IMG/VR virus record: IMGVR_UViG_3300046519_000390
Location: 1-24,167 of that record
Strand: one strand, 5' to 3'
Origin: a virus
DNA length: 24,167 nucleotides
Part shown: in pieces, positions 1 through 22,902 of the stretch
Layout of the letters: the number at the start of each line of letters is the position of its first letter
Numbering within the stretch: the first letter of the stretch is position 1
The notes under the pieces: model-generated
The model's database searches: none
What the model was told of the DNA's origin: nothing
What the model saw: the letters and a program-made list of their open reading frames with translations, nothing else
Program-made: the position numbers and the translations under genes

Positions 1-26
1 TTCAGTTTGAAGAAAGCAGAGGATAG
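1..26. repeat. Terminal direct repeat, left copy (circular junction)
   Basis: These 26 bases are identical to positions 24142-24167. A reading frame passes through the repeat without interruption when the ends are joined, so this is best read as assembly overlap of a circular molecule. A very short physical terminal repeat is possible but less likely. Confidence 0.93.
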
Positions 27-2241: not shown

Positions 2242-2269
2242 CAGAAGTCCTCGCCGTGACAAGATGCGC

Positions 2270-2284
2270 CAACGTGTCGTGACA
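2270..2284. promoter_or_regulatory. Operator-like motif copy 3
   Basis: CAACGTGTCGTGACA, matching CARCGTGWCGYGWCA. It lies 29 bases upstream of the ParB-like start codon. The flanks resemble those of the copy at 886-900 (CAAGA, a few bases, then GCCAACGTG). Confidence 0.5.
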
Positions 2285-2343
2285 GGTGACGCGGGTTGAT
2301 TTAAGAGCCTGCGCTTTCGCGCCATTGGTCGCCCACCTTGAGC

Positions 2344-2363
2344 TTTCCCCGTCAACGGGGAAA
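2344..2363. repeat. Perfect hairpin flanked by direct repeats
   Basis: TTTCCCCG (2344-2351) and CGGGGAAA (2356-2363) form an 8-bp stem with a TCAA loop. CACCTTGAG occurs on both sides (2334-2342 and 2371-2379). It lies in the 261-bp gap 2242-2502 upstream of the ParB-like gene. There is no U-tract on either strand, so it is more likely an operator or RNA-processing element than a terminator. The rest of the gap holds operator copy 3 and TGGC-rich sequence near 2470-2500. Confidence 0.4.
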
Positions 2364-2502
2364 TTGACCACACCTTGAGAAGAGAAGAGGACGCTTGCGC
2401 GTCAAACTTGCCCTTTATTTGACCTGTAAGCTCTCCGGGCATCCTGCGAGCCATCCGAGGGAGCAAACGCCAGCCACGCAGCCAGCCAGCCACGCCAGCG
2501 AG

Positions 2503-6393: not shown

Positions 6394-6433
6394 TTCACCC
6401 ATGACCGCATCACCCGCAAAGGAGACTAGAGCC

Positions 6434-8104
6434 ATGAATGATACGCATAAGCCTACAGGAAAAAACAGGCAGCGAAAAGAGACGCGCCGCGTCCGTGTCA
6501 GTGTCAGGCGCTTTGAGAAATACGGCATTGAGCGCGGCGACGTAGCAACCTACCTGAACGACGAAGAGATAGCGATAGGGGATTTAGGATATTTCGCCGT
6601 GACCTGTAACTACAGCGACCACCGGCAGTATTACAACGCGCTCGCTTTTCTCTGCGAGCAGGACAAGACTTGCGGTAACAGCTGGAACTATAAGCGCACA
6701 TCAGAAGATTTGTGCATCAGGTACGACCCAAGCCAATGCGAGCACCACCATGCGGGGAGGGCATACGGCCGCGTGATCGAGATTGAACGACACGGCCAGC
6801 CCATTGAAACCGCGCTCGACCTCAGAGCCGCCCACGAGCGAGACGGGCGAGATTGTTACCCGAAGGAGGCTCTGCATCCAACCCGGCCCGCCATCCCTCC
6901 AACCCACAAGGCAGAAGAACTAACGACCCAGCACGCCATTCCCGACAACCTGATAACGTCGCCGATGATCGCCGGATTTACACTCGCCGACCTGTTGGGG
7001 CTCTGGCCGAGCGACCCCGCGCCGTTCCTGTTCACCATCACCAATGACAACCTACACCGCGTCGGCCTCCAACCCCAAGACGTACTAATCGGCTTCAAAA
7101 CCGACGACATCAAGCAGGGCGATCTTGTTCTAGCCCGCGTCGGCGAGCACCTGCTAGTGCGGCTTTACTCTCGCTTTCAAGATTGCGTCATCCTCGGCAC
7201 GGCCGGAGGCGAGGCCACCAGCAATCGCTCAGAGGACATTGAGATCGTCGGGCGCATCATTCGAGCAATGCGTAAAAGCGGCCTCGCCGACGTGTTGGGC
7301 ATCAGACCCGCGCACGTTGTCTCAAATATCCCGCCGAAGCGAGAGACGGAGGACAAACGCGCCGACTTCAGCTACACAAATCATTGGTGGACTGCCGCCT
7401 GGTCAAGTAAGCAGCTCCGCCGCTGCGCCGACAAGATCGCGCTCATTCAGGCCACCGGCACAGACGAGCAAAGGGCGATACTGGCAACAGCCCTTGAGTA
7501 TCGCGCTGAATATTCAGACGTGCTGACCTTCTTTCCAGACGTGGACATCTACTCGCCGGAATCCCTCTACATCACGGAATACTGCATCTCCTGTCGGCTG
7601 CGATGGACAGAGGACAGCAACAAGATGGAGCAGCTACGCATGAATACCCCAAGCGCCTACCTTTGGGTAAACAATGTCTGCAATGACTTGCTCACAGAGA
7701 AGGGCATGAAGAAGATCAGGAAACAGATTCAATCTGGAAACACCCCGGGGAACTATCGCAGCCGTTCTCACCAAGACGCGCCGATATGCGGCTTCATAAA
7801 CGGACAAAAGACCTACACCGCAGATGTGGACTTGCCACGAGACGGCATCAACAAAGGCGACCGCGTTGTAGTCGAGTTATGCGACGAGATTCCCAACGCC
7901 TGCGTTGGAGCCGTGAGGCATAGATGCCGCGTCACCATCAATCGCATCTACACGCCCGACCCCGACCATATCCGCATCGGCGAGGACTACGAGGACATAG
8001 AGAAGCGCGACCACGTTGAGATCATCGGCAAGGTCGTTAAGGTCATCAAGAAGAAGTTGCCGAAAGACGATGACGGGATTCTTGACGCTGACATTGTTGG
8101 ATAA
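6434..8104 (+). CDS. Large protein with three LexA/S24-like beta segments
   Basis: A 556-aa protein. Three stretches look like the beta fold of the S24/LexA peptidase family: about residues 20-120 (YGIERGDVAT ... IGDLGYFAV ... GRVIEIERHG), 195-280 (VGLQPQDVLIGFK ... IKQGDLVLARVGEHLLVRL ... DIEIVGRIIRAMRK) and 460-545 (DGINKGDRVVVEL ... DHVEIIGKVVKVIKKK). Each ends in a GxVI-like strand. In the middle segment the S24 nucleophile site reads NDNL instead of a GDSM-type serine, and the VKR lysine site reads VRL, so autoproteolysis is unlikely. No HTH is present. The ATG at 6434 (AAGGAG upstream) is preferred over 6401. It is the largest protein of the plus operon. It might be an anti-SOS or anti-repressor protein that mimics S24 regulators, or a scaffold; this is inference. 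Confidence 0.65.
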   Translation: MNDTHKPTGKNRQRKETRRVRVSVRRFEKYGIERGDVATYLNDEEIAIGDLGYFAVTCNYSDHRQYYNALAFLCEQDKTCGNSWNYKRTSEDLCIRYDPSQCEHHHAGRAYGRVIEIERHGQPIETALDLRAAHERDGRDCYPKEALHPTRPAIPPTHKAEELTTQHAIPDNLITSPMIAGFTLADLLGLWPSDPAPFLFTITNDNLHRVGLQPQDVLIGFKTDDIKQGDLVLARVGEHLLVRLYSRFQDCVILGTAGGEATSNRSEDIEIVGRIIRAMRKSGLADVLGIRPAHVVSNIPPKRETEDKRADFSYTNHWWTAAWSSKQLRRCADKIALIQATGTDEQRAILATALEYRAEYSDVLTFFPDVDIYSPESLYITEYCISCRLRWTEDSNKMEQLRMNTPSAYLWVNNVCNDLLTEKGMKKIRKQIQSGNTPGNYRSRSHQDAPICGFINGQKTYTADVDLPRDGINKGDRVVVELCDEIPNACVGAVRHRCRVTINRIYTPDPDHIRIGEDYEDIEKRDHVEIIGKVVKVIKKKLPKDDDGILDADIVG

Positions 8105-8111
8105 ATGAAGC

Positions 8112-8620: not shown

Positions 8621-8627
8621 CGGGACA

Positions 8628-8662: not shown

Positions 8663-8683
8663 GTTCAGCACCGGAGATGAGAG

Positions 8684-9121
8684 ATGAAGAAACAGGATGA
8701 AGAACCACAGCCGCGCGGCTTCGTCACGTCCGCGCACTTCGAGGCGTTGAGAATAATTCGCAGAGAGCAGCCGGAGCTTTACATGACCATGAGCCGCAGC
8801 GTTAAAGCCCAGGTCGAGCTTTATAGTCTCTGGCGCAACCGTCACAAGAAGAAGAGGCAGGCAGCAGCCAGAGATAAGAGGATACAGAACCTCGGCGGTC
8901 TGTGTGTGTGCTGCGGAGAGAATATCAGGCTCGCGCTGTCTTATGACCACATCATACCGAAGTCCAAAGGCGGCACGAAGCAGCCGGATAACATTCAGCT
9001 TCTATGCTTGAGCTGCAACCAGCTTAAAGGTACGGGCGCGATGTGCCAGCACCAACAGATCGCCAGAGGGTTAATCTGGCAGAACATCACACCGGCAGCA
9101 GAAAGTCAGGAAGTAGCGTGA
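8684..9121 (+). CDS. HNH endonuclease
   Basis: The 145-aa protein carries a complete HNH nuclease domain at about residues 70-118. Paired zinc-binding cysteines lie in CVCCGE and CLSCN, the catalytic histidine in YDHIIP, then KGGTKQPDNIQLLC and the asparagine of SCNQLKGT. The N-terminal 65 residues are helical and basic (RNRHKKKRQAAARDKR), suitable for DNA binding. It is the last gene of the plus operon, converging on the large terminase. In cos-type phages an HNH protein next to terminase is needed for DNA cleavage at packaging. A solitary homing-type or anti-host nuclease is the alternative. A GGAG site precedes the ATG. Confidence 0.88.
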   Translation: MKKQDEEPQPRGFVTSAHFEALRIIRREQPELYMTMSRSVKAQVELYSLWRNRHKKKRQAAARDKRIQNLGGLCVCCGENIRLALSYDHIIPKSKGGTKQPDNIQLLCLSCNQLKGTGAMCQHQQIARGLIWQNITPAAESQEVA

Positions 9122-9181: not shown

Positions 9182-9282
9182 ACCACTAGATATTGTGATT
9201 GCACAGGAAGAGTGCAAAGAAGGGAAATTGTCTGTTGAAATCAGAGACGGCCACCACAACAGATTGTGATGCTCTATCTCTT

Positions 9283-9350: not shown

Positions 9351-11393
9351 CTAATCATCAAGCTCATTGCCGTACATATCTCTTTTTCCGGACTTCGGGC
9401 GCAGCGTCTCTCTTGCCATGTCGCGCGCCGCGAGGTAGGAAATCTCATCATGCGGCAGCATCCCTCGCTTGCCCGGTATTCTCAAAGATTCAAACCGGGA
9501 CTCGGGCGGAGTTAAAGCTGTAATCCTTTCGCCCTCCGTCATCGGCGCGGCCTGCGGGGCTCCGTCGAAGAACTGCATCATTAGAAGATTGCCGTAGTCA
9601 TCATTCATCTTCATCGGCCCGTACTCGATTGCGCCCGACTCGGACACCTTGATCGGACGGTTGCGCCAATGCTTGAATTGATAACGAGCGAGGTCTGAGC
9701 CGTGCAGTCTGTCAGGCGTCACAGCCGAAGGGTATGCAGCCTGTTCTTTCTTCACCACGAGAAAGAATCTGGCATACCCCATCTGGCCGGGCTTGAAGGG
9801 ATGCGGCCTTTCATAGTCAACCTTCTGATAATGGTTTATCCATTCGATGCCGCCACCTTCCCCCGGATTAGCAGGCTGAAACGGCAGGCCGAAGCAGTCA
9901 TTGTAAATCCTGAGAGCATCGTTAGCCTGTTCGTGTGAGCCGCGAAATCTCTTATATCTTTTCTTCTCTAAGAGAGGCCGCACGTACTGAGGAATGACCT
10001 TTGCCAGCGTCTCACGCTCCAACCTCAAACGCTCCGTCGGACTCGGCACATAGCGGGACAACCCCTCGCGCTCGAACTGCGCCTGCACTAACTCTTCCCA
10101 CTCGCGCACAACACCCTCGACCGTCACCGTTGGAGAGATCGTCTTGAGCATCGCTAAGCCCACGTCATCGGCCAATGTGCCAGCCTCATAACTCAGTGCA
10201 TTGAACATGAAGATGAAACCCGGCAGCGGGTCGAACTGCCCAGCGACGGTTAAGCTGGCCGAGACATTAGCATGATAGGCCGACTTGGTTTTAGACCAAT
10301 CATTCCCACCGTACTTGTACCATCTATCCGGCGGCTCTTTTGCCCCGTAGATAGCCTCAAACTCTTCCTCAGTGATGACGTGGACATCATCATCCCAATT
10401 CGGCAGCACCTTCTCTGTCCTGTCATCCGTGAAGTCGTGTTGATACTCGGCGAGGAACGCAGACCGACCGGACTTAGCCAGGAACCGGCGAGCAGCGGCC
10501 ATATCAATATCAGGCCACGTTGGGGCGCAGGACTTGATTCTCCAGACGTGGTTTGTCTCGTCAACTTCAAGTTCCAAATCTTCAAAAGCTTTGACGGGTC
10601 CAGACACGATGCGCTCAGAGAGTACGTCCGTCCTGCGAGTGTAGATTTGATTCAGCACCGAATCTTCATCAATCAGATTTTGAGCAAAGAGTGTGATCGT
10701 GTCGGCTTGACCGGCAGGCAGGATAGAGCGCGAGATAACTTTTATTTTCTTCTCAACTTGAGCGGGAGAATCTTTCTCGCTGTCCACATCATCGAGGACG
10801 ATCATCGTAAAGCGCAGGTCTTTCTTGCGGCCTCCGCGTATCCCCTGCTCAAGTCCGACCGGGATTATTCCCCACCCCGAAGCCGTCGCCAGATAATCCT
10901 TTGACCATCCGATTTGATTACCATGCAAACCGACTTCGGGAGATGCCAGCCCAGGGTAATAGTAGGCTATCTCAGAGGATTCTAAGCGGTCACGAATAGC
11001 AGCAACGTGGTCAAGAGCTTGCCCCTCAGTCTCACAGGCATAAAGCACATAGCCTTCCCCCAAGACTGCGCCCTCTGCGATGCACGCCCATTCAACGTGC
11101 GAGCTTTTCCCACCGCCGCGAAACCAAATGGCGAGAAAGGCCAGCTCGTCATCCGCCAGAGGTTCGCCCCGCAGACGCTTCATTGTGATGCGCCAATACC
11201 ACGCCCATTTTTCACGATGGAAATATGAGAAGGAACCCGTAAAGGTGCGAGCACCGAGCGTCTTTAGCCAAACCTCGAAGCCTCTGGATTCAAGCTCTAC
11301 GGCCTGCGTCGTCTTCGGATAAGGTACGGGATTCTCAAGCACCCGCAGGGTTGCCGCAGACTTCCGAGCTAATCTATCTAGTGTGCTGCTCAA
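9351..11393 (-). CDS. terL: Phage terminase large subunit
   Basis: The 680-aa protein has the two-domain layout of a packaging motor. The N-terminal ATPase includes a Walker A-like WFRGGGKSSHVE (about residues 90-100) and a Walker B-like strand with acidic pair MIVLDDVDSE. An RNase H-like nuclease region follows, with an acidic strand in YKYGGNDWSKTKSAYHANVS. A motif SHEQANDALRIYNDCFGLP and a C-terminal tail follow. It is somewhat longer than the common 450-600 aa. The start is a TTG at 11393 overlapping the TGA of the small terminase gene (TTGA); no ATG or GTG lies between the preceding in-frame stop and this TTG. It is the last gene of the late operon, as in T7. It should dock on a portal, which is not encoded here. 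Confidence 0.9.
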   Translation of the reverse strand: MSSTLDRLARKSAATLRVLENPVPYPKTTQAVELESRGFEVWLKTLGARTFTGSFSYFHREKWAWYWRITMKRLRGEPLADDELAFLAIWFRGGGKSSHVEWACIAEGAVLGEGYVLYACETEGQALDHVAAIRDRLESSEIAYYYPGLASPEVGLHGNQIGWSKDYLATASGWGIIPVGLEQGIRGGRKKDLRFTMIVLDDVDSEKDSPAQVEKKIKVISRSILPAGQADTITLFAQNLIDEDSVLNQIYTRRTDVLSERIVSGPVKAFEDLELEVDETNHVWRIKSCAPTWPDIDMAAARRFLAKSGRSAFLAEYQHDFTDDRTEKVLPNWDDDVHVITEEEFEAIYGAKEPPDRWYKYGGNDWSKTKSAYHANVSASLTVAGQFDPLPGFIFMFNALSYEAGTLADDVGLAMLKTISPTVTVEGVVREWEELVQAQFEREGLSRYVPSPTERLRLERETLAKVIPQYVRPLLEKKRYKRFRGSHEQANDALRIYNDCFGLPFQPANPGEGGGIEWINHYQKVDYERPHPFKPGQMGYARFFLVVKKEQAAYPSAVTPDRLHGSDLARYQFKHWRNRPIKVSESGAIEYGPMKMNDDYGNLLMMQFFDGAPQAAPMTEGERITALTPPESRFESLRIPGKRGMLPHDEISYLAARDMARETLRPKSGKRDMYGNELDD

Positions 11394-11833
11394 TGGCTTA
11401 GCTGTGAGACTTCAGGATAATGGACGGAGAGCGCCGTAATCGCTTCAGCCCGCGTGCAGGGTTCGCCCAAATCAGCGGCCTCCTGCATGATTCTTTCTAT
11501 CTCGCTTTCCATCCGTGCTCGTTTGTCATTCGTGATCGTGATGCTCTGCGCGGGCTTCCCTTCCGTCCTGTCGCCAATCTCTTTCAAGAGGCCGACGAGC
11601 TGGCGGACATCTCCGTCTCTGGCCTGCATCACAGCCCGATCAGCTATCACTTCGGCAAAGGTGCGACGCTCCGGATCTGTCTCATCTACCTGTGCCAACT
11701 TGCTGCGAATAGCAGATGAGAGCAGCGCAGACTTCGGACGACCAGCCGGATTGCCAGATTGCCCCGGCTTGAATGGCCTGAGATTAGCAAGGCTTCGCGC
11801 CTTGGCGTCCTCCGTCTCTGTCTCTTCACTCAT
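11390..11833 (-). CDS. terS: Putative terminase small subunit, DUF5681-type
   Basis: The 147-aa protein carries the signature FKPGQSGNPAGRPKSALLSS at residues 20-39, the DUF5681 motif frequently found directly upstream of large terminase genes. A helical region follows (FAEVIADRAVMQARDGDVRQ, LVGLLKEIGDRTEG), suitable for oligomerisation and DNA recognition. Its start overlaps the stop of the preceding gene by eight bases and its stop overlaps the TTG start of terL, so the three are translationally coupled. Expected job: recognise the packaging site and present DNA to the motor. Assignment rests on the motif and on adjacency; the family as a whole lacks a proven function. Confidence 0.72.
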   Translation of the reverse strand: MSEETETEDAKARSLANLRPFKPGQSGNPAGRPKSALLSSAIRSKLAQVDETDPERRTFAEVIADRAVMQARDGDVRQLVGLLKEIGDRTEGKPAQSITITNDKRARMESEIERIMQEAADLGEPCTRAEAITALSVHYPEVSQLSH

Positions 11834-12062
11834 CGCCCTTGCACTCCGGCGATTCCGGCAGGCTCTCCACCGCCGTCAACGCCTGCGAGACTTGAGACAG
11901 CCCTTGCGTGGCCTCATCATACGCAGCCTGCGCTTTCGCTTTCGCCTCTGTCGCTGCCGCCTGCGTGTTCTCTAACCGCTCCTGTGTGGATTGCAGCAGG
12001 AAAGAGATTCGCGTCCGCTCTTGGTGCGTCATTGTGTAAGTTACGTCTGTTCCTGTGGGCAT
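11826..12062 (-). CDS. Small coiled-coil protein in the late operon
   Basis: The 78-aa product is hydrophilic, with a continuous helix from about residue 10 to 65 rich in Gln, Ala, Glu and Thr (RLENTQAAATEAKAKAQAAY). It has no transmembrane helix, so although it occupies the place of the T7 holin gene 17.5, it is not a holin by sequence. Two tandem ATG codons exist (12065 and 12062). The second is chosen because AAGGAGG ends only one base before the first. The stop of the upstream 222-aa gene overlaps the ATGATG. It could be a trimerising fibre partner or a scaffold. Confidence 0.65.
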   Translation of the reverse strand: MPTGTDVTYTMTHQERTRISFLLQSTQERLENTQAAATEAKAKAQAAYDEATQGLSQVSQALTAVESLPESPECKGDE

Positions 12063-12730
12063 CATGCCTCCTTATAGAATCCGAATATACTTGCCTGAAA
12101 GGTTGCCGGGTCGTCCGAACGGTCGCCCAGCTTGAAGCGCACAAAACCACCGGGAGCGACGGCCACCTTTGCCAGCGCAGACGGAATCAAGTGCTGCACG
12201 ACGCTTGAACTGTTGAGCGCAAGCTGCGTTGATTGAATGACCGTGCCGCCGCCAACCGACTCTTTGATCGTGATGCTCGGCGTGTTCGTGATGACGTTCG
12301 TGGTCGCGCCATAGCAGACAACTTTCGTCACAATGAGGCCGGTCGCTTCTTCGTTCTCGAACAAGTCCTGGTCAGTGGCTATGAAGGCGTTGACCGTCAC
12401 GGTATCAAGCAGTTGCTCGCCGCTGGCCGTCGAGATGTTAGCCGAGCCGAACACATGCCAGTCGCCGCGATCATCTATCTGTAAACTCACGGCAGCGGCT
12501 TGACCGGAGAGGGTTGTAATAACATTCCCCTGCGTATCTCTGAGCGTGACCACGTTGGAATTACTGCCCGTCTGGACGATGAATAACTCACGTTGCCCGC
12601 CGTTCGTGATGCTGTAGAGCCGACCGGAGAGAGCGCCCGCAGAGGCGTCCACCAGCAGCATGTAATCATTTTGCGTCGCGGTGAAATTACCCGATACCCT
12701 TCTCACTAAGATTGGAGCATGTACTGTCAT
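12062..12730 (-). CDS. Beta-rich virion protein, possible tail fibre or decoration
   Basis: The 222-aa protein is dominated by predicted beta strands and small polar residues (Gly, Thr, Ser, Val, Asn), with few lysines. Examples are FTATQNDYMLLVDASAGALS and TNGGQRELFIVQTGSNSNVV. It lies after the transglycosylase gene and before the terminases, the slot of T7 fibre gene 17, but it is far shorter than a T7 fibre (553 aa) and has no collagen-like or trimeric-needle repeats. GAGGT nine bases before the ATG supports the start. A head-decoration or baseplate-like role is equally possible. I see no sign that it is a major capsid protein, but a structure prediction would decide. Confidence 0.62.
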   Translation of the reverse strand: MTVHAPILVRRVSGNFTATQNDYMLLVDASAGALSGRLYSITNGGQRELFIVQTGSNSNVVTLRDTQGNVITTLSGQAAAVSLQIDDRGDWHVFGSANISTASGEQLLDTVTVNAFIATDQDLFENEEATGLIVTKVVCYGATTNVITNTPSITIKESVGGGTVIQSTQLALNSSSVVQHLIPSALAKVAVAPGGFVRFKLGDRSDDPATFQASIFGFYKEA

Positions 12731-12744
12731 CTTGTGTTACCTCT

Positions 12745-12954
12745 TCAATTCATAATCAAAAGATAAGTCTCATTCGCTAATTGCTCTCTTGCTATGAGAG
12801 CCGTGTAGCGCGTCTCTTCCGCCCACATCTCGACAGGCCAACGCTGAAAGGCATTCAATATATTTGCGCGGGGCGTATCGCTGTCTCCGGCGCACGCCTC
12901 AGTCACAACAAGGGTCAACTCTTGCAGCTTGGCGCGCATTGCCCGCCTGAACAT
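12745..12954 (-). CDS. Small paralog of the first late gene
   Basis: The 69-aa product shares a motif with the 78-aa protein at 19500-19736: FxRxPxExWxxETRxT appears as FQRWPVEMWAEETRYT here and FERRPTEVWHSETRMT there, preceded in both by an Arg-containing helix. So the late operon contains two diverged copies. The start at 12954 is uncertain because no clear ribosome-binding site is seen; the frame stays open upstream into the end of the 1309-aa gene. It lies 16 bp after that gene and 14 bp before the 222-aa gene. The conserved Trp and ETR residues suggest a fixed binding surface. Function unknown. Confidence 0.6.
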   Translation of the reverse strand: MFRRAMRAKLQELTLVVTEACAGDSDTPRANILNAFQRWPVEMWAEETRYTALIAREQLANETYLLIMN

Positions 12955-12970
12955 TTCATGGTTAGAGCCG

Positions 12971-15900
12971 CTATTGATTTTCAAACAGATCCTCCACGCC
13001 AGGCTCGGACTCTTCGGGCGCACCGAGTTCATCATCAGCGCGGCGAACCTCTGCGACACGACGCCGGATAGCCTCTTGCTTTTCCACGTCCGTCATTAGC
13101 TGATACGCCTCGCCCGTAATAAGCTCAGTCAGAGCCGCTTGAATCTTCGGCTCCTGGCGTTCGAGCCTTGCTTGATAGCTTTCGTCTGACTCGCCTTTGT
13201 CTCGACGCGCACGCCCGACTTTTATATCCAGATCGTGCAATTCTCCCGCGATGGCTTTTAGTTCAGGGTCGGCGTCTACTTTTTCCTTGAGTCTTACGCG
13301 CCACTCTTCCGGCTCGCCCTGCTCCGTTCGCCCCTGCAATTCATCAAGGGACTTCCCTCTCGTCTCCACTCCAACACCGACAGCAGACGGCAGCGCTTTA
13401 GCTGCGCCCGTCAAACCTTCCTCCTCGAAAGCCTCATACACGTCCTTGAGAAAGAGCGGAGTTATCAGCTCAATAGTGTTTCGCTTGAGACTGAAGGCTC
13501 TCCCCGTCACATCCTCACCTGTCGCGGCATCCGTGATGTATGAAGGAATGGGGGCGAAATTCTTTCTAGCTTCCGTGAGTGCCGCGCCTCCATCTTCTTT
13601 GAAGTTCACGCCATCAAACGGCAGACGGGCGATGTAACGAGCCAGCCGGAAGCCGACCCTTAAATACCGCGCATTTCCACCTGTTATATCAAACGCCATC
13701 TCGCCGGATTTAATTTTGAGGAAGGTTGATTTTTCCGGGTCTGTGCCGACCTCAAGCCCCGCAGCACTCGCCAGCATCAGCGTTGAGGTAATCGCTCCTA
13801 TAACCTTTGCGGTCTGCTTGAGCGCAATCTTTCGGACACGCGGATCCATTCGCATGTATTCGATAGGATTCAAAACATCGAAGCGAGCTTTAATCAGACG
13901 CGGAGAGAAGAACGGCACGTTGAGCAGCTCAGCGGCGGGATTGAGACGGCCAAGATCACCACGCCCCGACATTGAATTTATCCTGCGCGCGAGGTCACGG
14001 TAAGCCTTCGGATTAGTCTCCGGCGTGACGCCCTCCGATTGAAGTATCTCGGCATACTTCGAGAAGGTTTCGAGCCGCATAGTATCCAGAGTCGCGTTGT
14101 AACTCTGCTCCGATTGCTTCACAACAGGGAGCTTTGAAGCGAAGCGAGACGGAAAGCTTTCCTCTCTTCCCTTACCCTGCGTCGCCAGAAACAGCCCCGA
14201 TTCTTCCGCCGTCTGTTTCATCGGATGCGTTGCAATATCGTCAACCACATCGGCGTAAGTGTCCGAGTTGAGAGAAGCAAGCCCCCGCTTCATTCCGCGA
14301 TACCATGCGCGAGGTTCACTAATAAACATCAAGCCTTGCCGCAGGAGTCCCGACACATCACCGGATGATTGAGCGGACTTAAAGACGCCCAGCGTATCAA
14401 GTACATTCCTCACCAACCCGGGACGCTTGCGCGGGTCAACTACCTTGTAGCCGGATTTGTCATATTCAATCAGCCCTTCCGCTTCCATCCGATTCAGATA
14501 GTCGCCCACTTCCTCATCCGACAGTTTGAACTTTCGGCGCAGGCGTCGCCCGTTGAGCTTCCCAGAGTTCTCAACTTCAGATTTAACTTGCCGGTAGCGA
14601 TTGAGGCCGGGAGCAATCGGCTCGCCGTCCACATCCGTCATGTTCAGGACTTCAAGCAGATTCTCTCTCGCGTATCCCCTGATCGTCTCCGGCGTCACAG
14701 ACTCAGGATGAACCACATAAGAGCCATCGCGCACCCGCGTCTTGCTGTAGCCCTTTGGCACGCTCGGAACCTGTTCGCCCTTACCGTACCTCACATAGTT
14801 TGTCTCACCGGCCAGCAGGCCATCGAGAGCGGTAGGATTAAGCGCGCGGGCGAGAGCATCACCGAAAGGACTCCGGCTTGAAGGCGTAGACTCACGATTG
14901 CGACCAACCGGAAAAGCGGCACCGAGGGCAGCGGCGGAGAGAAGCTTTGACGGGTCACGCTCGCCAAATAGAGCGGCCTGTCCTGCGTTCGTCGCGGCCA
15001 TCGCAGCCCGACCGGCAGCTTGACGCGCCAACGGCGAAAGGTTTCCGGTTAATCCACTAACAGCTTTTCCGACGCCCATTGTCGCCGCTGTCTCAAGCCC
15101 TGCTCCAGTAGCCGCAGGAAGCCCACGATTCAGGTTTTGCGCGAAGGCCAGAACGGGCGCACCTTCACCCGCAGCCAAGTACATCGGAGCTTCCGCAAGT
15201 CCACCAACCACGCCGCGCACAATCTTTCGGACAGGCCCCTTCTCTTCAGGAATTGCACGGCGGGCATCATCAATCGCGGCCTGTCCTCTTCCCTCTTCCT
15301 GTTGGAGCCGTTGATAGTCCGCGCCGTTGCGATCTTGGGAGACAGCAGCCCGCGCCGCGATAGAGGCATTCTGAGCAAGCTGCGCCTCTGCTAACCCAGC
15401 ATCGGAAAGGCCAGCCCGCACAGTATCGCCAAAGGTGCGTGTCGCCTTCTCTTCTTCGGCGAGTCTTTCTTTCTCGGCTCTGTCCTCCATCTGGACGCGC
15501 GCATACTCATCCTGTAAGCCCTGCAATCCGCCCGACAGATAGGCCGCAGCTCCACGACGCAGCGCAGGAGAATCCGGCATCACAAATTCATAGGTGCGGC
15601 TCTGCGGGTCAAAGACAAGGCTCTTGCGAATCTGAGCTATTTCCTCCGGCTCAAAGTTAGCCAGGTATCGCCCCGTCTCGTTCCTGTAGAGATCATTCGC
15701 ACGCACGGCATCAGCACCAAAGGCCGAGATTGCAGCAGCCGTTATCTCTTCATCGGTCGGATGGCGTCTCTCGTCACCGGGCAACTTCACCGTCAGGTTG
15801 CCAGCTATTTCTAAGCCACGCGATGGATTGTCAGGAACACTTTCCCTTGTCGCACCGAAATACTTTGCGCCCCCTGCTATCTGTTCCCCGACAGACTTAT

Positions 15901-16900
15901 CCAGCAGTTGGGGGGCATCAATCGGACGTACAGAAAGAGGATTGCCGAGTCCGTCTGTGAGGTCTACAGCCTCACCTTCTGGAATCCGCACAGACGTATT
16001 CGGAAAAGCGAACTTGTCGGGATAAAGAGCGTGAGGCGACCGCGCGGCCTGAGTATCCGTGTCGGGAGCTGCACCGGGCGCGGCGTCAAACAGATCATCC
16101 ACACGCTGCTCGCCATTGGCGTTGTACAACCCGAAGGTGTCTCTGCCCTGTCCCTCAGCATCGAAAAGGTCTGAGACATCATCCGAAGCAGCCGGGAGCT
16201 TTTCAGCGTCAACTCTACGTCCGACAGTCTTGGGCTGCGGAGTGTCGAAAAGGTCTGAGGCATCATCTTGCGGCTTGGGGCGCACCAGCGCATTGAGCTT
16301 GATTCTGTTCGGATGATACCCGAAGCCCGTATAACCACTCGTGATGCGATCAATGTACTCTCCGGTGCTTCCAGTGTAAGAACCTCGCCGCGCATCACCT
16401 TTCGGGAAGTTTGAGAATCTACGAACACGACGCAGGCCGTACTTTTCTACAGCACCCTCGCCCGCGTTGTAGCCAGCCAGCGCAGAAGGCACATTGCCGT
16501 TAAACTTATCCAAGAGGAAGCGCATGTAACGCACCCCGCCCATAATATTTTGGTCGGGGTCGTCTATGTTCTTAACGCCAAACCTCTGAGCAGTTCCCGG
16601 CTCAAGCTGAAGCAGGCCACGCGCGCCAGCCCACGACTCTGCTTTTGGATTCGCGCCCCGGTTCTCTCTTCCGGCGAGTCTGAAAATAAGCTCCGGGTCC
16701 ACCCCATACTGCTCGGAATATTTCTCAATAGATGAGCTGTAGGGATGACGAAGCGCGGGGGGTGTAAAGCTTTGCGCTTGCGGAGCAGGAGCGCGGCGCT
16801 GTCTCCGGCGCGCACGTCCCATTGTCCCGCCGAGTTGAGGCGAGTCAAACAGATCATCCACGCCGGGAGCATCCGTCAATCCTTGAACGCTTGCGCCCAT
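12971..16900 (-). CDS. Giant ejection protein with N-terminal lytic transglycosylase
   Basis: The 1309-aa protein has a soluble lytic transglycosylase (SLT) domain at about residues 55-190. The catalytic Glu is E79 in AGRENRG, followed by WAGARGLLQLEPGTAQRFG and ALAGYNAGEGAV. It should cleave cell-wall peptidoglycan during DNA entry. Four DLFD motifs lie in the first 272 residues (near 16, 216, 244, 269) and a DLFE motif ends the chain. The C-terminal third contains SGRGDLGRLNPAAELLNVPF and FFSPRLIKARFDVLNPIEY, resembling the large polyvalent protein-associated domain group (LPD38), from memory. Length and SLT position match T7 gp16 (1318 aa). It overlaps the 707-aa gene by one base (TGATG). 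It is expected inside the capsid and in the envelope channel after ejection. Confidence 0.85.
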   Translation of the reverse strand: MGASVQGLTDAPGVDDLFDSPQLGGTMGRARRRQRRAPAPQAQSFTPPALRHPYSSSIEKYSEQYGVDPELIFRLAGRENRGANPKAESWAGARGLLQLEPGTAQRFGVKNIDDPDQNIMGGVRYMRFLLDKFNGNVPSALAGYNAGEGAVEKYGLRRVRRFSNFPKGDARRGSYTGSTGEYIDRITSGYTGFGYHPNRIKLNALVRPKPQDDASDLFDTPQPKTVGRRVDAEKLPAASDDVSDLFDAEGQGRDTFGLYNANGEQRVDDLFDAAPGAAPDTDTQAARSPHALYPDKFAFPNTSVRIPEGEAVDLTDGLGNPLSVRPIDAPQLLDKSVGEQIAGGAKYFGATRESVPDNPSRGLEIAGNLTVKLPGDERRHPTDEEITAAAISAFGADAVRANDLYRNETGRYLANFEPEEIAQIRKSLVFDPQSRTYEFVMPDSPALRRGAAAYLSGGLQGLQDEYARVQMEDRAEKERLAEEEKATRTFGDTVRAGLSDAGLAEAQLAQNASIAARAAVSQDRNGADYQRLQQEEGRGQAAIDDARRAIPEEKGPVRKIVRGVVGGLAEAPMYLAAGEGAPVLAFAQNLNRGLPAATGAGLETAATMGVGKAVSGLTGNLSPLARQAAGRAAMAATNAGQAALFGERDPSKLLSAAALGAAFPVGRNRESTPSSRSPFGDALARALNPTALDGLLAGETNYVRYGKGEQVPSVPKGYSKTRVRDGSYVVHPESVTPETIRGYARENLLEVLNMTDVDGEPIAPGLNRYRQVKSEVENSGKLNGRRLRRKFKLSDEEVGDYLNRMEAEGLIEYDKSGYKVVDPRKRPGLVRNVLDTLGVFKSAQSSGDVSGLLRQGLMFISEPRAWYRGMKRGLASLNSDTYADVVDDIATHPMKQTAEESGLFLATQGKGREESFPSRFASKLPVVKQSEQSYNATLDTMRLETFSKYAEILQSEGVTPETNPKAYRDLARRINSMSGRGDLGRLNPAAELLNVPFFSPRLIKARFDVLNPIEYMRMDPRVRKIALKQTAKVIGAITSTLMLASAAGLEVGTDPEKSTFLKIKSGEMAFDITGGNARYLRVGFRLARYIARLPFDGVNFKEDGGAALTEARKNFAPIPSYITDAATGEDVTGRAFSLKRNTIELITPLFLKDVYEAFEEEGLTGAAKALPSAVGVGVETRGKSLDELQGRTEQGEPEEWRVRLKEKVDADPELKAIAGELHDLDIKVGRARRDKGESDESYQARLERQEPKIQAALTELITGEAYQLMTDVEKQEAIRRRVAEVRRADDELGAPEESEPGVEDLFENQ

Positions 16901-19023
16901 CAGTAAAGTATTGCGCCTCCGTCGGTCAATCGCCGCTCAGCTTCAGCTTCCGACACATGCCAACGCGCGGCGAACTTCGGAATATTTGCGCGCGGTGTTT
17001 TCTTCCCCTGAAATTCCCCTGTGCCCATCGCAGGCGGCGCAGATGAAATGTTCAACTGCCCGCCCTGCATTCCGCTTTGGGCGTCTACAGGAGTCCCATT
17101 AACCTCATCGCGCAAATCTTGAGCTTGCTGTCTCAAACTATTGGCGCGTGCCTTCTCTTCTCTGGCTGCGGCTTCGTCGGCCTGAATGTCGAGCTTCCTT
17201 GCCGACCGCAGCAGGCGTCTCTTCTCACCCGCTTTTAGCTCACCCGCGCCCGACACCCCGGCAGCGATGCGTGCGGCCTGTCGCCTATCTTGAGCCGCCT
17301 GTGAAGCAGCAGCTCGCGTAGCGGCGGCCTGTCTGTTCTTCTCGCCCTCGCTTTCCCGCGAGGTTCTGTTTCTGGACGAGCCGACCTTTTCGCCGCTCTC
17401 CGGATCAACTTTCTCAACTCGCTTAGTGACAACAGGAGCACCGCCCTCGCCCGTGAGCGGCGTAACCGAGCCGTCAGGATTGACTCTCCCCTTGCCGACC
17501 TGCACGCCATCTTCACCAAGCACATCAACCAGCACCGGGCGTTGCTGGTCGGGCGGGAGAGGATGCCCGTCGCTGTCCGTCATCGGATAACCAATGCGCG
17601 GGTCTTTGCTGTTGACCGCATAAGAGACGCCGCCTGATTTCTTCGTCGCCCACTTGCCATCTTTGAGGGAGCGAGCCTGCTCTAGCTTGAGTGTGCGCGT
17701 GGCGTCATCATCTGCGGCCTCGCGGTCTTGCTTCGACCAGTCGCCCTCCACTTTCAGCCGACCCATCAGCTCATCAATCTTCTGCCGATGAACCGAGTCA
17801 GCGTAAAACTTTGGATTGATGCCAGCGACCACGCCGGGCGCGATGCCGCCGAGCAAAGACCACGCGCCCGATTGTGGATTAGCAGCCGCGAACTGCGCCA
17901 CGCCTTCCAAATATTTGACGATTGCAGCCCTCCACCTGGGCGGCGAGTTTTCAGGGCTGTTCTTAAAGGCCGGGTTATTTATCAGATCATTCATGCGCCG
18001 AATCTCACGACGCATCCCCGGTATGGAAAGATCTTCAGGCGGCTCTCCCACCTTCACGTTAGGCGCAGCGGCGGCAGGCACGCGCGGAGTGGGAATATCA
18101 GGCTGACCATTCGACAATGCGCGGCGCAGATCGTCACCGAGTTTCGGCGGCAGGTCGGGCGAGGCAGGTTGCCGCTCGTTCAAGATTGAAGTGCGAATGT
18201 TCGGGTCTACCTGCGGCGGGACAGATGCGGCCATCGGTCGAGGCTGCAACGCGGCGTTCAGGGCTGCGGTGTTGATAGTCGGCTCGCCCGTCTGCGCCTC
18301 GCGTGGCTGCGGTGAAGGCACGCCCCGAATTGCATCGGCAATCGCATTCCCCCATGGTTGGCCGGGAGGATTCACTACCGGATGACCGCGCCTGTCCCAA
18401 TTTTCATAGGGCTGAGTCTCGCGCGTGCGGTCGAGCTCTTGGGGATTCTCACGCGGCAGCGGTAGAGCATCGGTCTGCGGAATGCTCGAAACCGGAACCA
18501 CTGGCGGATTACTGCCGCCGAGACTCAAGAGCGCCTCGCGGATAAGGCTTGAGGAAGGGTTAGGGTCAATCGTCGAAGGACGAACAGGCACACCAACACC
18601 ATCGGTCAATAATTGCTTGTTGCCCTCATCGTCGGTTGCGACTTCGGGGCGTTGCTCGCCATAGCGAATCGCGCGCCCGATTTCTCCGCGCGTAGAGCCT
18701 CCACGACGAAACTCTCTCATTGGCAAGAGCGGTCTTTGCGGCAATCGGCCATCGTTGTAGGTCTGCCCTGTCGTGAGCAGCTGATTCTGCGCGTGTCTGA
18801 CTGCGTTGTTGGCGCGGCTGTTAATTCTGTGTTCGCCAAATCGCTCAAGACCGGCAGCGCCGAGCTGTCCAGCGGCGTTGATGATCGTCTCGGCAATGCC
18901 CGGCTCCTGGTTAGCCATCTGCGGCATCGGCATCATCGGCTGAGGCTGTAGGTCAACACCATCAGAGCGGCGCGGCCTGCGTCGTATCGCTTCCATCAGG
19001 GCATTAACATCTATTCCTTGCAT
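16900..19023 (-). CDS. Putative internal virion (ejection) protein, gp15-like by position
   Basis: The 707-aa product is dominated by Pro-, Arg-, Asn- and Gly-rich low-complexity sequence (residues about 80-330), then a mixed segment. A strongly predicted coiled coil runs from about 555 to 645 (RNRQ-type Ala/Arg-rich helices such as ARKLDIQADEAAAREEKARA). The small C-terminal domain ends KFAARWHVSEAEAERRLTDG and AILY. No similarity to T7 gp15 is visible at sequence level; the call rests on order and size (gp15 is 747 aa, directly before gp16). A portal or capsid identity is not supported. It begins at the ATG at 19023, 15 bp after the 148-aa gene, and is coupled to the transglycosylase gene. 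Confidence 0.6.
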   Translation of the reverse strand: MQGIDVNALMEAIRRRPRRSDGVDLQPQPMMPMPQMANQEPGIAETIINAAGQLGAAGLERFGEHRINSRANNAVRHAQNQLLTTGQTYNDGRLPQRPLLPMREFRRGGSTRGEIGRAIRYGEQRPEVATDDEGNKQLLTDGVGVPVRPSTIDPNPSSSLIREALLSLGGSNPPVVPVSSIPQTDALPLPRENPQELDRTRETQPYENWDRRGHPVVNPPGQPWGNAIADAIRGVPSPQPREAQTGEPTINTAALNAALQPRPMAASVPPQVDPNIRTSILNERQPASPDLPPKLGDDLRRALSNGQPDIPTPRVPAAAAPNVKVGEPPEDLSIPGMRREIRRMNDLINNPAFKNSPENSPPRWRAAIVKYLEGVAQFAAANPQSGAWSLLGGIAPGVVAGINPKFYADSVHRQKIDELMGRLKVEGDWSKQDREAADDDATRTLKLEQARSLKDGKWATKKSGGVSYAVNSKDPRIGYPMTDSDGHPLPPDQQRPVLVDVLGEDGVQVGKGRVNPDGSVTPLTGEGGAPVVTKRVEKVDPESGEKVGSSRNRTSRESEGEKNRQAAATRAAASQAAQDRRQAARIAAGVSGAGELKAGEKRRLLRSARKLDIQADEAAAREEKARANSLRQQAQDLRDEVNGTPVDAQSGMQGGQLNISSAPPAMGTGEFQGKKTPRANIPKFAARWHVSEAEAERRLTDGGAILY

Positions 19024-19038
19024 CTCTTCATTTCCCTT

Positions 19039-19485
19039 TCAGAGTGCCGCTGCGCCCACGCTCGACGCTGCGCCAATCAACGGCCCCAATAAGTTGTTGC
19101 TTTGCTGTGTCGTTCCCGTCTGCGTGCCGCCGCTTTGAACAAGACGCGGCGCGGTCAACTCAGCCAGCATTCCGAGTTGCCCCATCCTCTGCGCGTTCAC
19201 TCCACCGTAAGCCTCGCGGAACGCTTCGCCTTTTTCCTGATTAAGCCCCTTGATATTTGCACGCAGGCCAGCGCCTCTCGTCTGTGCCGTCTCGTATGCG
19301 CCAAGAGGGTTGTCATAGGTGTCTCGGATAGCATTTTCAGCTTGGCCGTACCTGTAACCTATCGCCGGGTCAATCTGAGGCGTCCACTTCTTAAAGTCCT
19401 CAATCTCCTGCGTGCTTGGCGTCTGCTGCCACGCATAGGTGTTCGCCTGCTGTACGGTTTGGGTCTGTTTTGGACCACCTTTCAT
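19039..19485 (-). CDS. Small internal virion-like protein, gp14-like by position
   Basis: The 148-aa product has a Gln/Thr-rich N-terminus and a central helical segment with NPLGAYETAQTRGAGLRANI and YGGVNAQRMGQLGMLAELTA. The C-terminal Gly/Ala-rich hydrophobic end, NNLLGPLIGAASSVGAAAL, is suitable for membrane insertion. These features and its place directly before the 707- and 1309-aa genes resemble the smallest ejection protein of T7-like phages (gp14, 196 aa), which forms the outer-membrane pore. The ATG at 19485 with GGAAGGAAG upstream is selected over a longer frame reaching 19596, which would overlap the preceding gene. Confidence 0.65.
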   Translation of the reverse strand: MKGGPKQTQTVQQANTYAWQQTPSTQEIEDFKKWTPQIDPAIGYRYGQAENAIRDTYDNPLGAYETAQTRGAGLRANIKGLNQEKGEAFREAYGGVNAQRMGQLGMLAELTAPRLVQSGGTQTGTTQQSNNLLGPLIGAASSVGAAAL

Positions 19486-19499
19486 AATTTCTTCCCTTC

Positions 19500-19736
19500 C
19501 TAATTCAAAAGCGCATCCGGCGCGAAGTCGGGCATATAGCCAATCTTTACCATGAGAGCGACGCCCCTGGAGGTCATGCGCGTTTCGCTGTGCCACACTT
19601 CGGTCGGACGCCGCTCAAACATTGAGACAAGCCTTGCTCTGGCCTCTGCTTCACTGACGCCTCGCAACCGAGCGGATGCCTTTACGATCTCTTCGGCGCG
19701 GGCATCAAAGGCAAGTTGGAATCTGTTTGCGCTCAT
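19500..19736 (-). CDS. First gene of the late operon, small conserved-motif protein
   Basis: The 78-aa product (starts MSANRFQLAFDARAEEIVKA) is helical in its first half and contains FERRPTEVWHSETRMT, the motif shared with the 69-aa protein encoded at 12745-12954. The ribosome-binding site is weak (CAAGAG). It starts only 24 bases after the U-tract of an intrinsic terminator, which leaves no room for a promoter in between. That suggests expression depends on read-through. Function unknown; the duplicated motif within one virion operon hints at a structural role or at a late regulator acting in two places. Confidence 0.68.
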   Translation of the reverse strand: MSANRFQLAFDARAEEIVKASARLRGVSEAEARARLVSMFERRPTEVWHSETRMTSRGVALMVKIGYMPDFAPDALLN

Positions 19737-19849: not shown

Positions 19850-20146
19850 TTACATTTTCACCCCGACGAGCGCGAGCGCGTCCGCTTCGCTTCGAGCTAC
19901 ATCTAACTGTCCACGCCACGCATCATGGAACTCTTGCTGGTCAGGAGTCAGGATGCCGGTCAGACTTTTAATTTCGATAATGCGCGTCTGCTTTACGCGG
20001 CGACCGCTCCCGCAGCAGCACGGCATCACCCCTCCAACAACTATGTCAGGGAAGCCATCGCCGACGCCGGAAGTCACGGCAACGGAGACGCCGACCTGTC
20101 TCAGCGTTTTTACTATTGGAGTTTGATTTAAGTCCGTTCGCTTCAT
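19850..20146 (-). CDS. VRR-NUC-like PD-(D/E)xK nuclease
   Basis: The 98-aa protein shows the compact nuclease pattern of the VRR-NUC/Holliday-junction-resolvase-like group: GVGDGFPDIVVG with catalytic D34, then RIIEIKS with E58 and K60, then LTPDQQEFHDAWRGQ with Gln residues positioned for the last motif. An inserted CCCGSG (residues 43-48) sits where the family has a loop. The length is typical. The ATG overlaps the previous stop (ATGA), so it is the last gene of the replication operon. Likely role: branched-DNA or recombination-intermediate cleavage during replication or before packaging, comparable in logic to T7 gp3. Confidence 0.8.
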   Translation of the reverse strand: MKRTDLNQTPIVKTLRQVGVSVAVTSGVGDGFPDIVVGGVMPCCCGSGRRVKQTRIIEIKSLTGILTPDQQEFHDAWRGQLDVARSEADALALVGVKM

Positions 20147-20358: not shown

Positions 20359-20519
20359 TATGCCGCCCTCTGCTTTCTCTGTTCCTCATCAAACTTCTTT
20401 CTCTCTTCACACGAGAGCGACCAGCGGTAGCATTGACGGTTATCCATCATCGCGCAGAACTTGAAACCGATCTTGCACGCGCAGCGATTCTCAGGAGTTA
20501 GAACGAGAGTTTTAATCAT
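20358..20519 (-). CDS. Cys-rich mini-protein, possible zinc-binding
   Basis: A 53-aa gene that a 60-residue cutoff would miss. It starts ATGA, overlapping the stop of the TubC-like gene (20516-20519), and ends TAATG, overlapping the next start. It fits exactly into the 157-bp space between its neighbours, which is strong evidence that it is real. The protein (MIKTLVLTPENRCACKIGFK at the start) has cysteines at 13, 15, 22, 30 and 37, four of which could hold a zinc ion, followed by a basic/acidic helix (EERKKFDEEQRKQRAA). No family recognised; a nucleic-acid-binding accessory of the primase or nuclease is plausible. Confidence 0.7.
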   Translation of the reverse strand: MIKTLVLTPENRCACKIGFKFCAMMDNRQCYRWSLSCEERKKFDEEQRKQRAA

Positions 20520-20878
20520 GCCGCTACTCCAAACACCCGATACCGCTCAGTGCTTTCCCCGCCGCGCTCGATAACGTGCAGACCTCCAACCCTACGAGCC
20601 ACAGACAGCAGCACCGGAGAATCCGCGAGCTGTCGAATAAAGTCCCGCCCCAGGTCTCTTTCAAAAGTCAGCGGACACTCTTCGCCTGCAATCGCCTCGC
20701 GCTCCAGTGAGTCAAAGACCAATTCAATCAGCGGCTCTTTATGCTCTCGGATAAGCTCTAAGAGTTCGGGCGTCAGTACGCCTTGAGGCGCGTCTAATTC
20801 AAGCTGCGATAGATCGTCCGACAGCCCGACCACAACGCCGAGTTCCCACAGGTGATAAAGCAGGGTTTCGGGATTCAT
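20516..20878 (-). CDS. TubC N-terminal docking-domain-like protein
   Basis: The 120-aa product opens with LLYHLWELGVVVGLSDDLSQ, LELDAPQGVLTPELLELIRE and a HKEPLIELV helix. This resembles the TubC N-terminal docking domain: short helix, strands, then the PxxLLxxIRxxKxxLIxLL helix. Proteins of this type are found beside RepB-like primases on plasmids and phages, from memory, and probably mediate protein-protein docking there, not peptide synthesis. The second half (about residues 65-120) is alpha/beta and unassigned. It overlaps the primase stop as ATGA, so a stoichiometric partnership with the primase is likely. Confidence 0.68.
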   Translation of the reverse strand: MNPETLLYHLWELGVVVGLSDDLSQLELDAPQGVLTPELLELIREHKEPLIELVFDSLEREAIAGEECPLTFERDLGRDFIRQLADSPVLLSVARRVGGLHVIERGGESTERYRVFGVAA

Positions 20879-22902
20879 ACAGCAACCCTCACTCTCTTAT
20901 TGTCCGAGTGAGACGCCAGCCACCGTTCGGCAGCATCAAGCGTGCGCCGGACATAATCAGGGCGACGGGCGGCCTTGTCTCTCAAAGACCTCAACTTGTC
21001 CTCCACCATGTAACGCGGCCATCCGGCAGAAAGAGCGATGATGCAATATTTCTCATCAGCGCGATTCAGGTCAGGCGATCCGCTATCCTTTGCTGCGACC
21101 GACGCCGCGCACGCCTGATAATCCGGCCACTCCGAAGGCAGGCGCGACGACTGCGGGCGGCGGGATGAGATAGAGACGACCTTTTGAGGCTCAGGAGCGG
21201 CGAGCATTCCGGACTCTTCCAACTCTCTCACAAAGACCTTGCGACCCATCGCTACATGCGCAAGACGAACCAGCGGGAACGAACTATCCGCCGCCCGATG
21301 CTTCTCTTTGGCGTTCGCCGTTCCCGGCCACCGGATTGAGTTTCGCGCGCCACCGTTGGCTGCCTCTTTTTCCAACTCACGTTGTTTGAAGAACCGGGAC
21401 CGGACGGATTCAAACTCTTCATCCGTCAACTCGTCGGCGATGCAAAGGAAATCTTGATAACAGGCAAGAGATGTTTCAGCACCGAAGAAAGAGAAAGGTC
21501 TTATCCGTTCGTGAAACTGCAAGCTTTCGTCGTCAATTTGAATCATGCGCGGCTGGTCAAGAAACGTGGTCTTGCCCCGCCCAATCCGCACGGCAACCGA
21601 TTGATGGCAGGTCAGACTCCGACCGATGAACTTGGCAGCGGACGCCCGGAGCTGCGACGGCGAGAGCCTGTCCGTGCTGATAACCGTCGCCTCTGCGCCC
21701 ATCGGCTTGATCGAGAGCCACACGGCCAGAACCTTGTCCCCGCCAACCGACGAAACGGCATCAGCGGCAAGGCAAAACTGTTCTTCGGGCGAAAGATTTA
21801 GATGGGACGCCGGCGTCCCATCTAAATTTGACGAATCCGCGTTATTGCTTAGGGAATTTACAAGGTCGGGAGCTTCAGACGGCGCGGAAATGTCGGCTTT
21901 TCCGGCGTTGTCGCTATTTAGTATCACAGAGGACGACGCATCACTATCACCACCGGCAGGCGGGAGCGGTGCGCCGACGAGAGCGGCGTCGAACGTTCTC
22001 TGAAGCTCCAACCGGAAAGCAACCTCTTCATCTTCGTCAAGATTGAGAGCGGCGATTTGTGCCAAGCTCTCCGCAGCAAAGTTTTTGACGGCCACCCGAA
22101 GCAGTTTTTTGACCGTCTCTTTGGAAGCGGGCGCAGCATCCGTCACCGTCTCACTCTCCGCGACTTCCGGCGCGTCGGGCATCTTCCAATCGGGCGCGTA
22201 GACGTGGGCTTTGACCTGTTTGAACTCTTCGATAACCGGGACGGCCGCGCGGCTGTAGTGCGTGACGAGATACTGCTTTTTCTGGATTGCCTTTGCCCCG
22301 GTCGTCGCCTGCCCGACCTTGATTACCAGGTCGGTGATCCGGTCGGTGTAGAGCGGCGGGATTTTCTTCGCCGTCTCGCTAATGCCACGCTCTTTATCAA
22401 TCAGACCGAGATGCAAATAGCTTTGAACGATGTGCAGCTTTTTCCAGCGACGCTGCCAGCAGCGAGCGTAAGAGTTAATGAAGGTCTGCTTTGCCTTCTC
22501 GCCCTCGTCGTCAGGCGCGAAGTTCGGCATAGTCTCGCGCCTGAATAGCAGCTCCATTCTGTAGGCCGGAAGTCGAAACCGTCTGTTGATGGAATAGAAC
22601 GGCGCATCATTTCCGGCCGTCGCCTCCGCTTCAATCTCCGCGATCTGCGCAGCCTCCATCACGGTTTCGATAACCCGTCGCATCTCGTTAGCGTCAAATT
22701 CAAGCCGCCGCTTTTTCTTCGGGTCCAGCGGGTCAATGATCTGCCCCTTGAGAGCATGGCAGGCGTCATAGACGCCCACCACCTTGAGAACCGCACTCAG
22801 AGAGGAAAGCAGCGCACCGACTCTCTTCCGAGCTTGCACGGTCGTCGCTGGAGCTGGCTGCTTATCATCATCAAAGACGTTGCCGCTAGTTGCTCGATTC
22901 AT
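20875..22902 (-). CDS. Replication protein with RepB-type DNA primase domain
   Basis: A 675-aa protein in three parts. Residues 1-310 are mostly helical and unassigned (contains KKKRRLEFDANEMRRVIETV). A Ser/Asp/Ala-rich linker runs about 311-372. Residues 376-555 look like an archaeo-eukaryotic-type RepB primase fold: MIQIDDES supplies the acidic pair near 457-458, FFGAETSLACYQDFLCIA is the strand-loop pattern after it, and NSIRWPGTANAKEKH with FPLVRLAH follows. The final helices (IIALSAGWPRYMVEDKLRSL and PDYVRRTLDAAERWLASH) match the usual C-terminal bundle. It would synthesise primers for autonomous replication; no helicase or polymerase is encoded here. The linker codes for a 32-bp perfect palindrome. 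Confidence 0.75.
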   Translation of the reverse strand: MNRATSGNVFDDDKQPAPATTVQARKRVGALLSSLSAVLKVVGVYDACHALKGQIIDPLDPKKKRRLEFDANEMRRVIETVMEAAQIAEIEAEATAGNDAPFYSINRRFRLPAYRMELLFRRETMPNFAPDDEGEKAKQTFINSYARCWQRRWKKLHIVQSYLHLGLIDKERGISETAKKIPPLYTDRITDLVIKVGQATTGAKAIQKKQYLVTHYSRAAVPVIEEFKQVKAHVYAPDWKMPDAPEVAESETVTDAAPASKETVKKLLRVAVKNFAAESLAQIAALNLDEDEEVAFRLELQRTFDAALVGAPLPPAGGDSDASSSVILNSDNAGKADISAPSEAPDLVNSLSNNADSSNLDGTPASHLNLSPEEQFCLAADAVSSVGGDKVLAVWLSIKPMGAEATVISTDRLSPSQLRASAAKFIGRSLTCHQSVAVRIGRGKTTFLDQPRMIQIDDESLQFHERIRPFSFFGAETSLACYQDFLCIADELTDEEFESVRSRFFKQRELEKEAANGGARNSIRWPGTANAKEKHRAADSSFPLVRLAHVAMGRKVFVRELEESGMLAAPEPQKVVSISSRRPQSSRLPSEWPDYQACAASVAAKDSGSPDLNRADEKYCIIALSAGWPRYMVEDKLRSLRDKAARRPDYVRRTLDAAERWLASHSDNKRVRVAV
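21796..21827. repeat. Perfect 32-bp palindrome inside the primase gene
   Basis: The 16 bases at 21796-21811 (starting ATTTAGATGGGACGCC) are the exact reverse complement of 21812-21827, with no central spacer. It encodes about residues 359-369 in the low-complexity linker between the N-terminal part and the primase domain. Confidence 0.9.

Follow-up and report, generated by a model that had tools for sequence, protein, structure and literature searches.

The virus contig IMGVR_UViG_3300046519_000390 is 24,167 bases long (this whole stretch is called the window below) and can be closed into a 24,141-bp circle. We put at about one half the probability that this circle is a helper-dependent satellite, a complete circular element of a family of ~72-kb phages that has lost the block of portal, scaffold, capsid and tail genes. 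More tentatively, we propose that it represents a new kind of satellite, which would have its own packaging motor and ejection apparatus and borrow portal, capsid and tail from a helper of the same ~72-kb phage family, the helper genome being three times as large. The late operon lies on the minus strand (from 19736 to 9351), an operon at 3636-9121 lies on the plus strand, and the replication and regulation genes are on the minus strand. The packaging genes are the following.

9351..11393, minus strand: large terminase TerL, the packaging motor (PHROG 38, E-value (E) 6e-16; ATPase and nuclease motifs intact)
11390..11833, minus strand: small-terminase (TerS) candidate (DUF5681, Pfam E 2e-12)

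Both had been named in the initial annotation of this DNA, and both assignments held. TerL is 52, 50 and 42% identical to the TerL of the relatives G003, G004 and G005, respectively. TerL retains its Walker-type motifs and its nuclease aspartates: RGGGKS and LDDVD are present, and D365 and D599 are invariant across seven relatives. In both L006 and MW202647.1, a homologue of the TerS candidate is encoded immediately ahead of TerL. Three unrelated small-terminase candidates precede three close TerLs (L088 1579-1974, G003 42310-42954 and window 11390-11833), and these differing candidates suggest that packaging specificity may have been exchanged often in the family. We also considered a swap of TerS as a sign of hijacking and rejected it, since TerS differs between close relatives anyway.

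The family was found by a scan with TerS, which led to L006 with its adjacent TerS and TerL, and then by TerL alignments of viral contigs. Scans of viral contigs with single proteins (TerL, the primase-like protein and a 1309-amino-acid (aa) protein with an SLT domain) and a first scan of genome contigs gave no match; a second genome-contig scan gave a single distant TerL, in a Nitrospirae metagenome-assembled genome. Among GenBank phages, the matches to TerL were weak and those to the SLT protein and TerS were distant. The closest long relatives are uncultured phages from IMG/VR, namely G003 (a 73.2 kb contig), G004 (73.9 kb) and G005 (69.3 kb). G017, G018 and G024-G027 are also members, and the circular relatives measure 69.2-74.6 kb without their end overlaps. 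In G003, G004 and G005, TerL is followed by a portal-like protein of 861-896 aa, a ~510-aa protein at the position of a scaffold and a capsid-like protein of ~424 aa; the block continues with g8 to g12, a ~700-aa tail protein and g19, and then comes a homologue of a 185-aa protein of the window (o185). A conserved portal/scaffold/capsid/tail block stands beside TerL in all better-covered close relatives, and the same block was seen again in 12 portal-based loci.

The portal and capsid of the relatives are mostly missed by Pfam and PHROGs too, and they gave no sequence match in the PDB and no match to P22-like annotated portal or capsid. The capsid-like group has a weak PHROG capsid match (E 0.0027); its AlphaFold model is poor (pLDDT 41), and the best Foldseek match of this model (E 7e-7) is to a major capsid protein. 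It is mainly gene order and size that underlie the labels 'portal' and 'capsid', together with these weak PHROG and low-confidence Foldseek matches. The family is widespread (G003, G004, G005, G017, G018, G022-G027), and its portal/capsid set is undescribed as judged from Pfam, PHROGs and the PDB.

The window shares with this family the TerL clade, the SLT protein, the 185-aa protein, a VRR-NUC-like and a ParB-like protein and, with one member, a 222-aa protein. The family genomes are three times larger and contain the portal/scaffold/capsid/g8-g12/tail block, of which the window has no part. Among its open reading frames (ORFs) that were scanned with Pfam, PHROGs and NCBIfam, none matched a portal, capsid or tail-tube protein, an integrase, or a DNA or RNA polymerase. 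Because such general libraries miss the relatives' own capsid and portal, profiles were built from the gene groups shared by the close relatives and run over the circle in its six reading frames. The profiles of TerL (2.6e-248), the SLT protein (1.1e-58) and the 185-aa protein (4.1e-36) matched, and nothing else did; those of portal, scaffold, capsid, g8-g14 and tail13 gave no match in the circle at E≤10. In leave-one-out controls among the relatives, the portal was recovered at ≤1e-168, the capsid at ≤1e-111 and the tail at ≤1e-248. The portal was also found beside TerLs less similar to that of the window than the TerL of G003 is (L006, 1.8e-33; L092, 3e-94; L095, 7e-140; L130, 4e-192; L134, 1e-177). 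TerLs with a portal alongside were as little as 29-39% identical to the window TerL, and many of them lie further from each other than the window lies from G003. Because the portal is detected so strongly in the controls and in distant relatives, we conclude, at the level of sequence, that the window is really without the family's shell genes and that divergence of these genes does not explain their absence. The earlier statement that portal, scaffold, capsid, tail-tube, polymerase and integrase genes are lacking was therefore borne out by blank library scans and, for the shell block, by blank family profiles.

The kinship of the window with these phages was assessed with a TerL tree, in which it falls within the clade of portal-bearing phages as the sister of G003, G004, L088 and G005, with 100/100 support for the set. 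We regard the window, from its sequence, as a reduced member of the ~72-kb lineage. Since the tree nests it in a portal-bearing clade, the loss of the block would be derived, provided that the late genes of the window moved as a unit, for which the shared TerL, SLT and tail-region genes speak. The tetranucleotide correlation between the window and G003 is 0.63-0.69, nearly as high as that between the late and early parts of the window itself (0.70), compared with ≤0.52 for unrelated phages; this signature points to G003-like phages as candidate helpers and seems to speak against a chimeric contig. Furthermore, three times 24,141 is 72,423 bp, the size of one family genome, the circle being one third of the family size. 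A larger version of the genome with capsid genes, to be looked for in the same sample according to the initial annotation, does exist, only as distant relatives (TerL ≤52% identical) in other public contigs.

Beside the packaging genes, the late operon encodes proteins of the ejection and tail-region type.

12971..16900, minus strand: 1309-aa ejection-type protein with an SLT lytic transglycosylase domain (PF01464, E 6e-20)
16900..19023, minus strand: proline-rich protein of 707 aa, candidate for a second ejection protein from its position only
19039..19596, minus strand: tail-region virion protein o185 (185 aa; a likely ATG start at 19485 gives 148 aa)
12062..12730, minus strand: beta-rich protein of 222 aa, probably part of the tail fibre or adsorption apparatus (homologue in G024)

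An ejection set of three proteins had been proposed, and this stood in part. The SLT protein is convincing: its C-terminal region is common to large phage virion proteins, including one of phage ctf1B273, and its relatives of 1511-2235 aa adjoin TerL in G003, G004 and G005. The 185-aa protein is instead the product of a tail-region gene: its homologues follow the large tail gene in the same three genomes, and it was found in 11 of 15 further family records. The 707-aa protein belongs to the set by position only. Its gene is immediately upstream of the SLT gene, a place where the relatives encode proteins of 416-656 aa, and no homologue of it was found in library or family-group searches. The 1309-aa protein contains five DLF[DE] motifs, at residues 16, 216, 244, 269 and, right at the C-terminal end, 1304 (shuffle mean 0.045). 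One copy is also present in the 222-aa protein and none in the SLT proteins of the relatives; the motif may possibly serve in docking or processing.

The circle itself depends on the following features.

1..26, identical to 24142-24167, no strand: exact terminal repeat of 26 bp, the overlap that closes the circle (24,141 bp)
23542..24167, minus strand: C-terminal part of a protein spanning the joint, with its N-terminal part at 1-258

We considered the possibility, which we judge unlikely, that 24 kb of a ~72-kb phage had been assembled and falsely closed through the 26-bp repeat. The overlap is indeed short compared with those of four circular relatives (127 bp in G005, G017, G018 and G027) and of a fifth (62 bp in G026), and closure was judged from the assembled sequence. 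G003 has a 108-bp repeat between 2354 and the contig end. Yet a chance identity over 26 bp is negligible, and exact direct repeats of at least 26 bp (non-tandem and off the contig ends) are nearly absent in eight family genomes; in the window, the terminal repeat is the sole exact repeat of at least 20 bp. Moreover, a single ORF of 316 stop-free codons reads through the joint with coding-like codon use on either side, and the late and early parts have a homogeneous tetranucleotide signature (correlation 0.70), both of which argue against false closure.

A natural deletion derivative, i.e. a ~72-kb family member minus its shell genes that persists as a plasmid-like relic with disused late genes, also appears improbable. 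The plasmid-type genes would suit such a relic and, if the ancestral late operon began with the portal, one deletion upstream of 19736 would be enough, gene order being variable in the family. However, the late genes are all intact, the active-site residues of TerL are kept, and the order of the genes differs from that in G003, G004 and G005: the 185-aa gene precedes the 707-aa and SLT genes in the window and follows the tail block in the three relatives. This does not fit a simple recent excision, though a single deletion from a differently ordered ancestor is possible, as gene order varies in the family.

It is much less probable that the element encodes its own capsid and portal, of an unrelated and unrecognised type. 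Several plus-strand proteins and the 707-aa protein are without assignment, and the structure model of the 222-aa protein is unusable (pLDDT 33), which leaves some room for this. Yet the largest unassigned proteins have other domains or, among the matches listed, no similarity to the portal, scaffold and capsid profiles, and none of the unassigned ORFs combines the length and the location expected of a portal gene. A profile comparison of eleven window proteins with the family structural groups likewise gave none among the matches listed. Three of the proteins put forward in the initial annotation as candidates for a capsid or portal fold turned out to be of another nature. The 222-aa protein (12062-12730), tried as a capsid, matches G024 29064-29663 (E 4e-6), in the tail-fibre region behind the 185-aa homologue and g14. 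The 567-aa protein at 6401-8104 has S24 peptidase domains (PF00717, E 2e-8), and part of the 251-aa protein at 4766-5521 resembles a plasmid protein of Diaphorobacter.

Finally, a split genome, in which the virus would have its shell genes on another DNA molecule, is the least probable alternative: the lost block is functionally coherent, and packaging and ejection could lie on one circle and the shell on another, but no shell-block circle devoid of TerL was seen, the family portal contigs with enough upstream flank all have TerL, and the literature searched holds no precedent.

We return to the proposed satellite, for which the genes of replication and maintenance are of importance.

20875..22902, minus strand: putative replication protein of 675 aa (weak RepB_primase match, PF16793, E 3e-4, below the curated cut-off)
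20516..20878, minus strand: TubC_N-type domain protein beside the primase-like gene (PF18563, E 2e-9)
1462..2493, minus strand: ParB-like or partition-type protein (like proteins of many plasmids, 30-48% identity, and also like a G003 ORF)
6401..8104, plus strand: 567-aa protein with two S24 (LexA-type) peptidase-like stretches (PF00717, E 2e-8)

Beside its phage genes, the window has candidates for plasmid-type genes, namely the ParB-like protein and the weak RepB_primase match below cut-off; its early proteins gave no phage match. We hypothesize that the element would be maintained and replicated by these plasmid-type genes (the RepB-like primase, the ParB-like protein and the S24/LexA-type regulator). 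Upon infection by, or induction of, a helper from the same family, the late operon would supply the element's own TerS and TerL, the SLT protein and a few proteins of the tail or of adsorption. All of these would dock on the procapsid, portal and tail of the helper. Packaging of the element DNA would follow, in shells that are smaller or in full-size shells that each take about three genome lengths. The parts that were kept would serve the choice and movement of DNA (TerS, TerL) and its entry (the SLT and tail-region proteins), and their plainest use would be with the portal and procapsid of a helper. Helper dependence, packaging mode and timing are inferred.

A satellite that keeps its motor and ejectosome had been suggested in the initial annotation. 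This reading was supported in part: it agrees with the small gene complement, with a genome one third of the family size, with maintenance genes of plasmid type and with an oligonucleotide signature like that of G003. Several observations weigh against it. The contig scans revealed no helper, no shared packaging site and no second example, though records very near the window may escape them. No hallmark gene of satellites (integrase, capsid-size redirector) was recognised. Circularity rests on a 26-bp sequence overlap, the one-third size may be a coincidence, and the type of TerS is no particular indication of hijacking, since it differs between close relatives as well.

The remaining features of the window are listed below.

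11826..12065, minus strand: 79-aa coiled-coil-like protein (no confident match; weak match to a G017 ORF, E 0.0027)
12745..13059, minus strand: 104-aa ORF (no Pfam or PHROGs match)
19500..19736, minus strand: 78-aa ORF, first gene of the late operon (no Pfam or PHROGs match)
19850..20146, minus strand: 98-aa VRR-NUC-like ORF, labelled by eye (phmmer E 4e-10 in G017 and 0.0026 in G003; no Pfam match)
933..1439, minus strand: regulator with two helix-turn-helix domains (HTH_17, PF12728, E 2.5e-17)
8684..9121, plus strand: HNH endonuclease (PF01844, E 1e-13)

The ORFs at 12745-13059 and 19500-19736 share a similar stretch by eye (RRPTEVWHSETR / QRWPVEMWAEETR) and are possibly duplicated regulators or virion parts. 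Two perfect inverted repeats, both intergenic and terminator-like by eye, flank the late operon, at 19782-19801 (GGACTAAC..GTTAGTCC) and 9146-9182 (GAGACAGGCCG..CGGCCTGTCTC). The 159-aa protein at 375-854 (minus strand) has an N-terminus resembling a secretion signal, and a similar small signal-bearing protein is encoded beside the SLT gene in L088 (886-1350). Rfam and tRNA searches of the window gave no match, and a defence-gene search of the window gave generic HNH matches only.

The genomes of P4 and of SaPIs are about one third of those of their helpers, and the window is of similar relative size. Like P4, it would be a plasmid-capable element using the virion of a helper; unlike P4, which uses the helper terminase and encodes Sid, it has its own motor and ejection protein. 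The scanned window ORFs gave no match to P4 families (Sid/Psu/delta), though Sid-like proteins may escape such scans. P4 and most PICIs depend on the helper terminase (PMC10690885). As with PICIs and SaPIs, some of which have their own TerS, the reduced element would be expected to use helper shells. In contrast, PICIs integrate and use the helper TerL, whereas the window has its own intact TerL and gave no integrase match in Pfam and PHROGs scans of its ORFs. The cf-PICIs and the Mulch/Flayer satellites of Streptomyces carry the terminase together with portal and capsid (PMC10690885). The window resembles cf-PICIs in having its own TerS and TerL, but these have genes for capsid, protease, portal and connectors and depend on borrowed tails, whereas the window is without shell genes and keeps ejection and tail-region proteins. 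Mulch and Flayer also have their own TerS and TerL, and one of them is not integrated; their genes include portal, capsid and scaffold but no primase, whereas the window lacks the shell and has a possible primase. Further satellite families are PICMI, PLE, VEIMEs and tycheposons (PMC11389934). In the open-licence literature searched, we found no satellite with its own motor but without a shell. Of the described satellites compared here, P4 and PICI take both motor and shell from the helper, and cf-PICI and Mulch/Flayer combine the motor with their own shell. If our proposal is correct, a motor and ejection proteins without portal and capsid would be a different separation of functions: a motor could be retained to act on a foreign portal, and an own DNA-injection machinery would be worth carrying. 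The window would then illustrate a concrete route from phage to satellite within one recognisable family, with G003-like phages as candidate helper-type phages.

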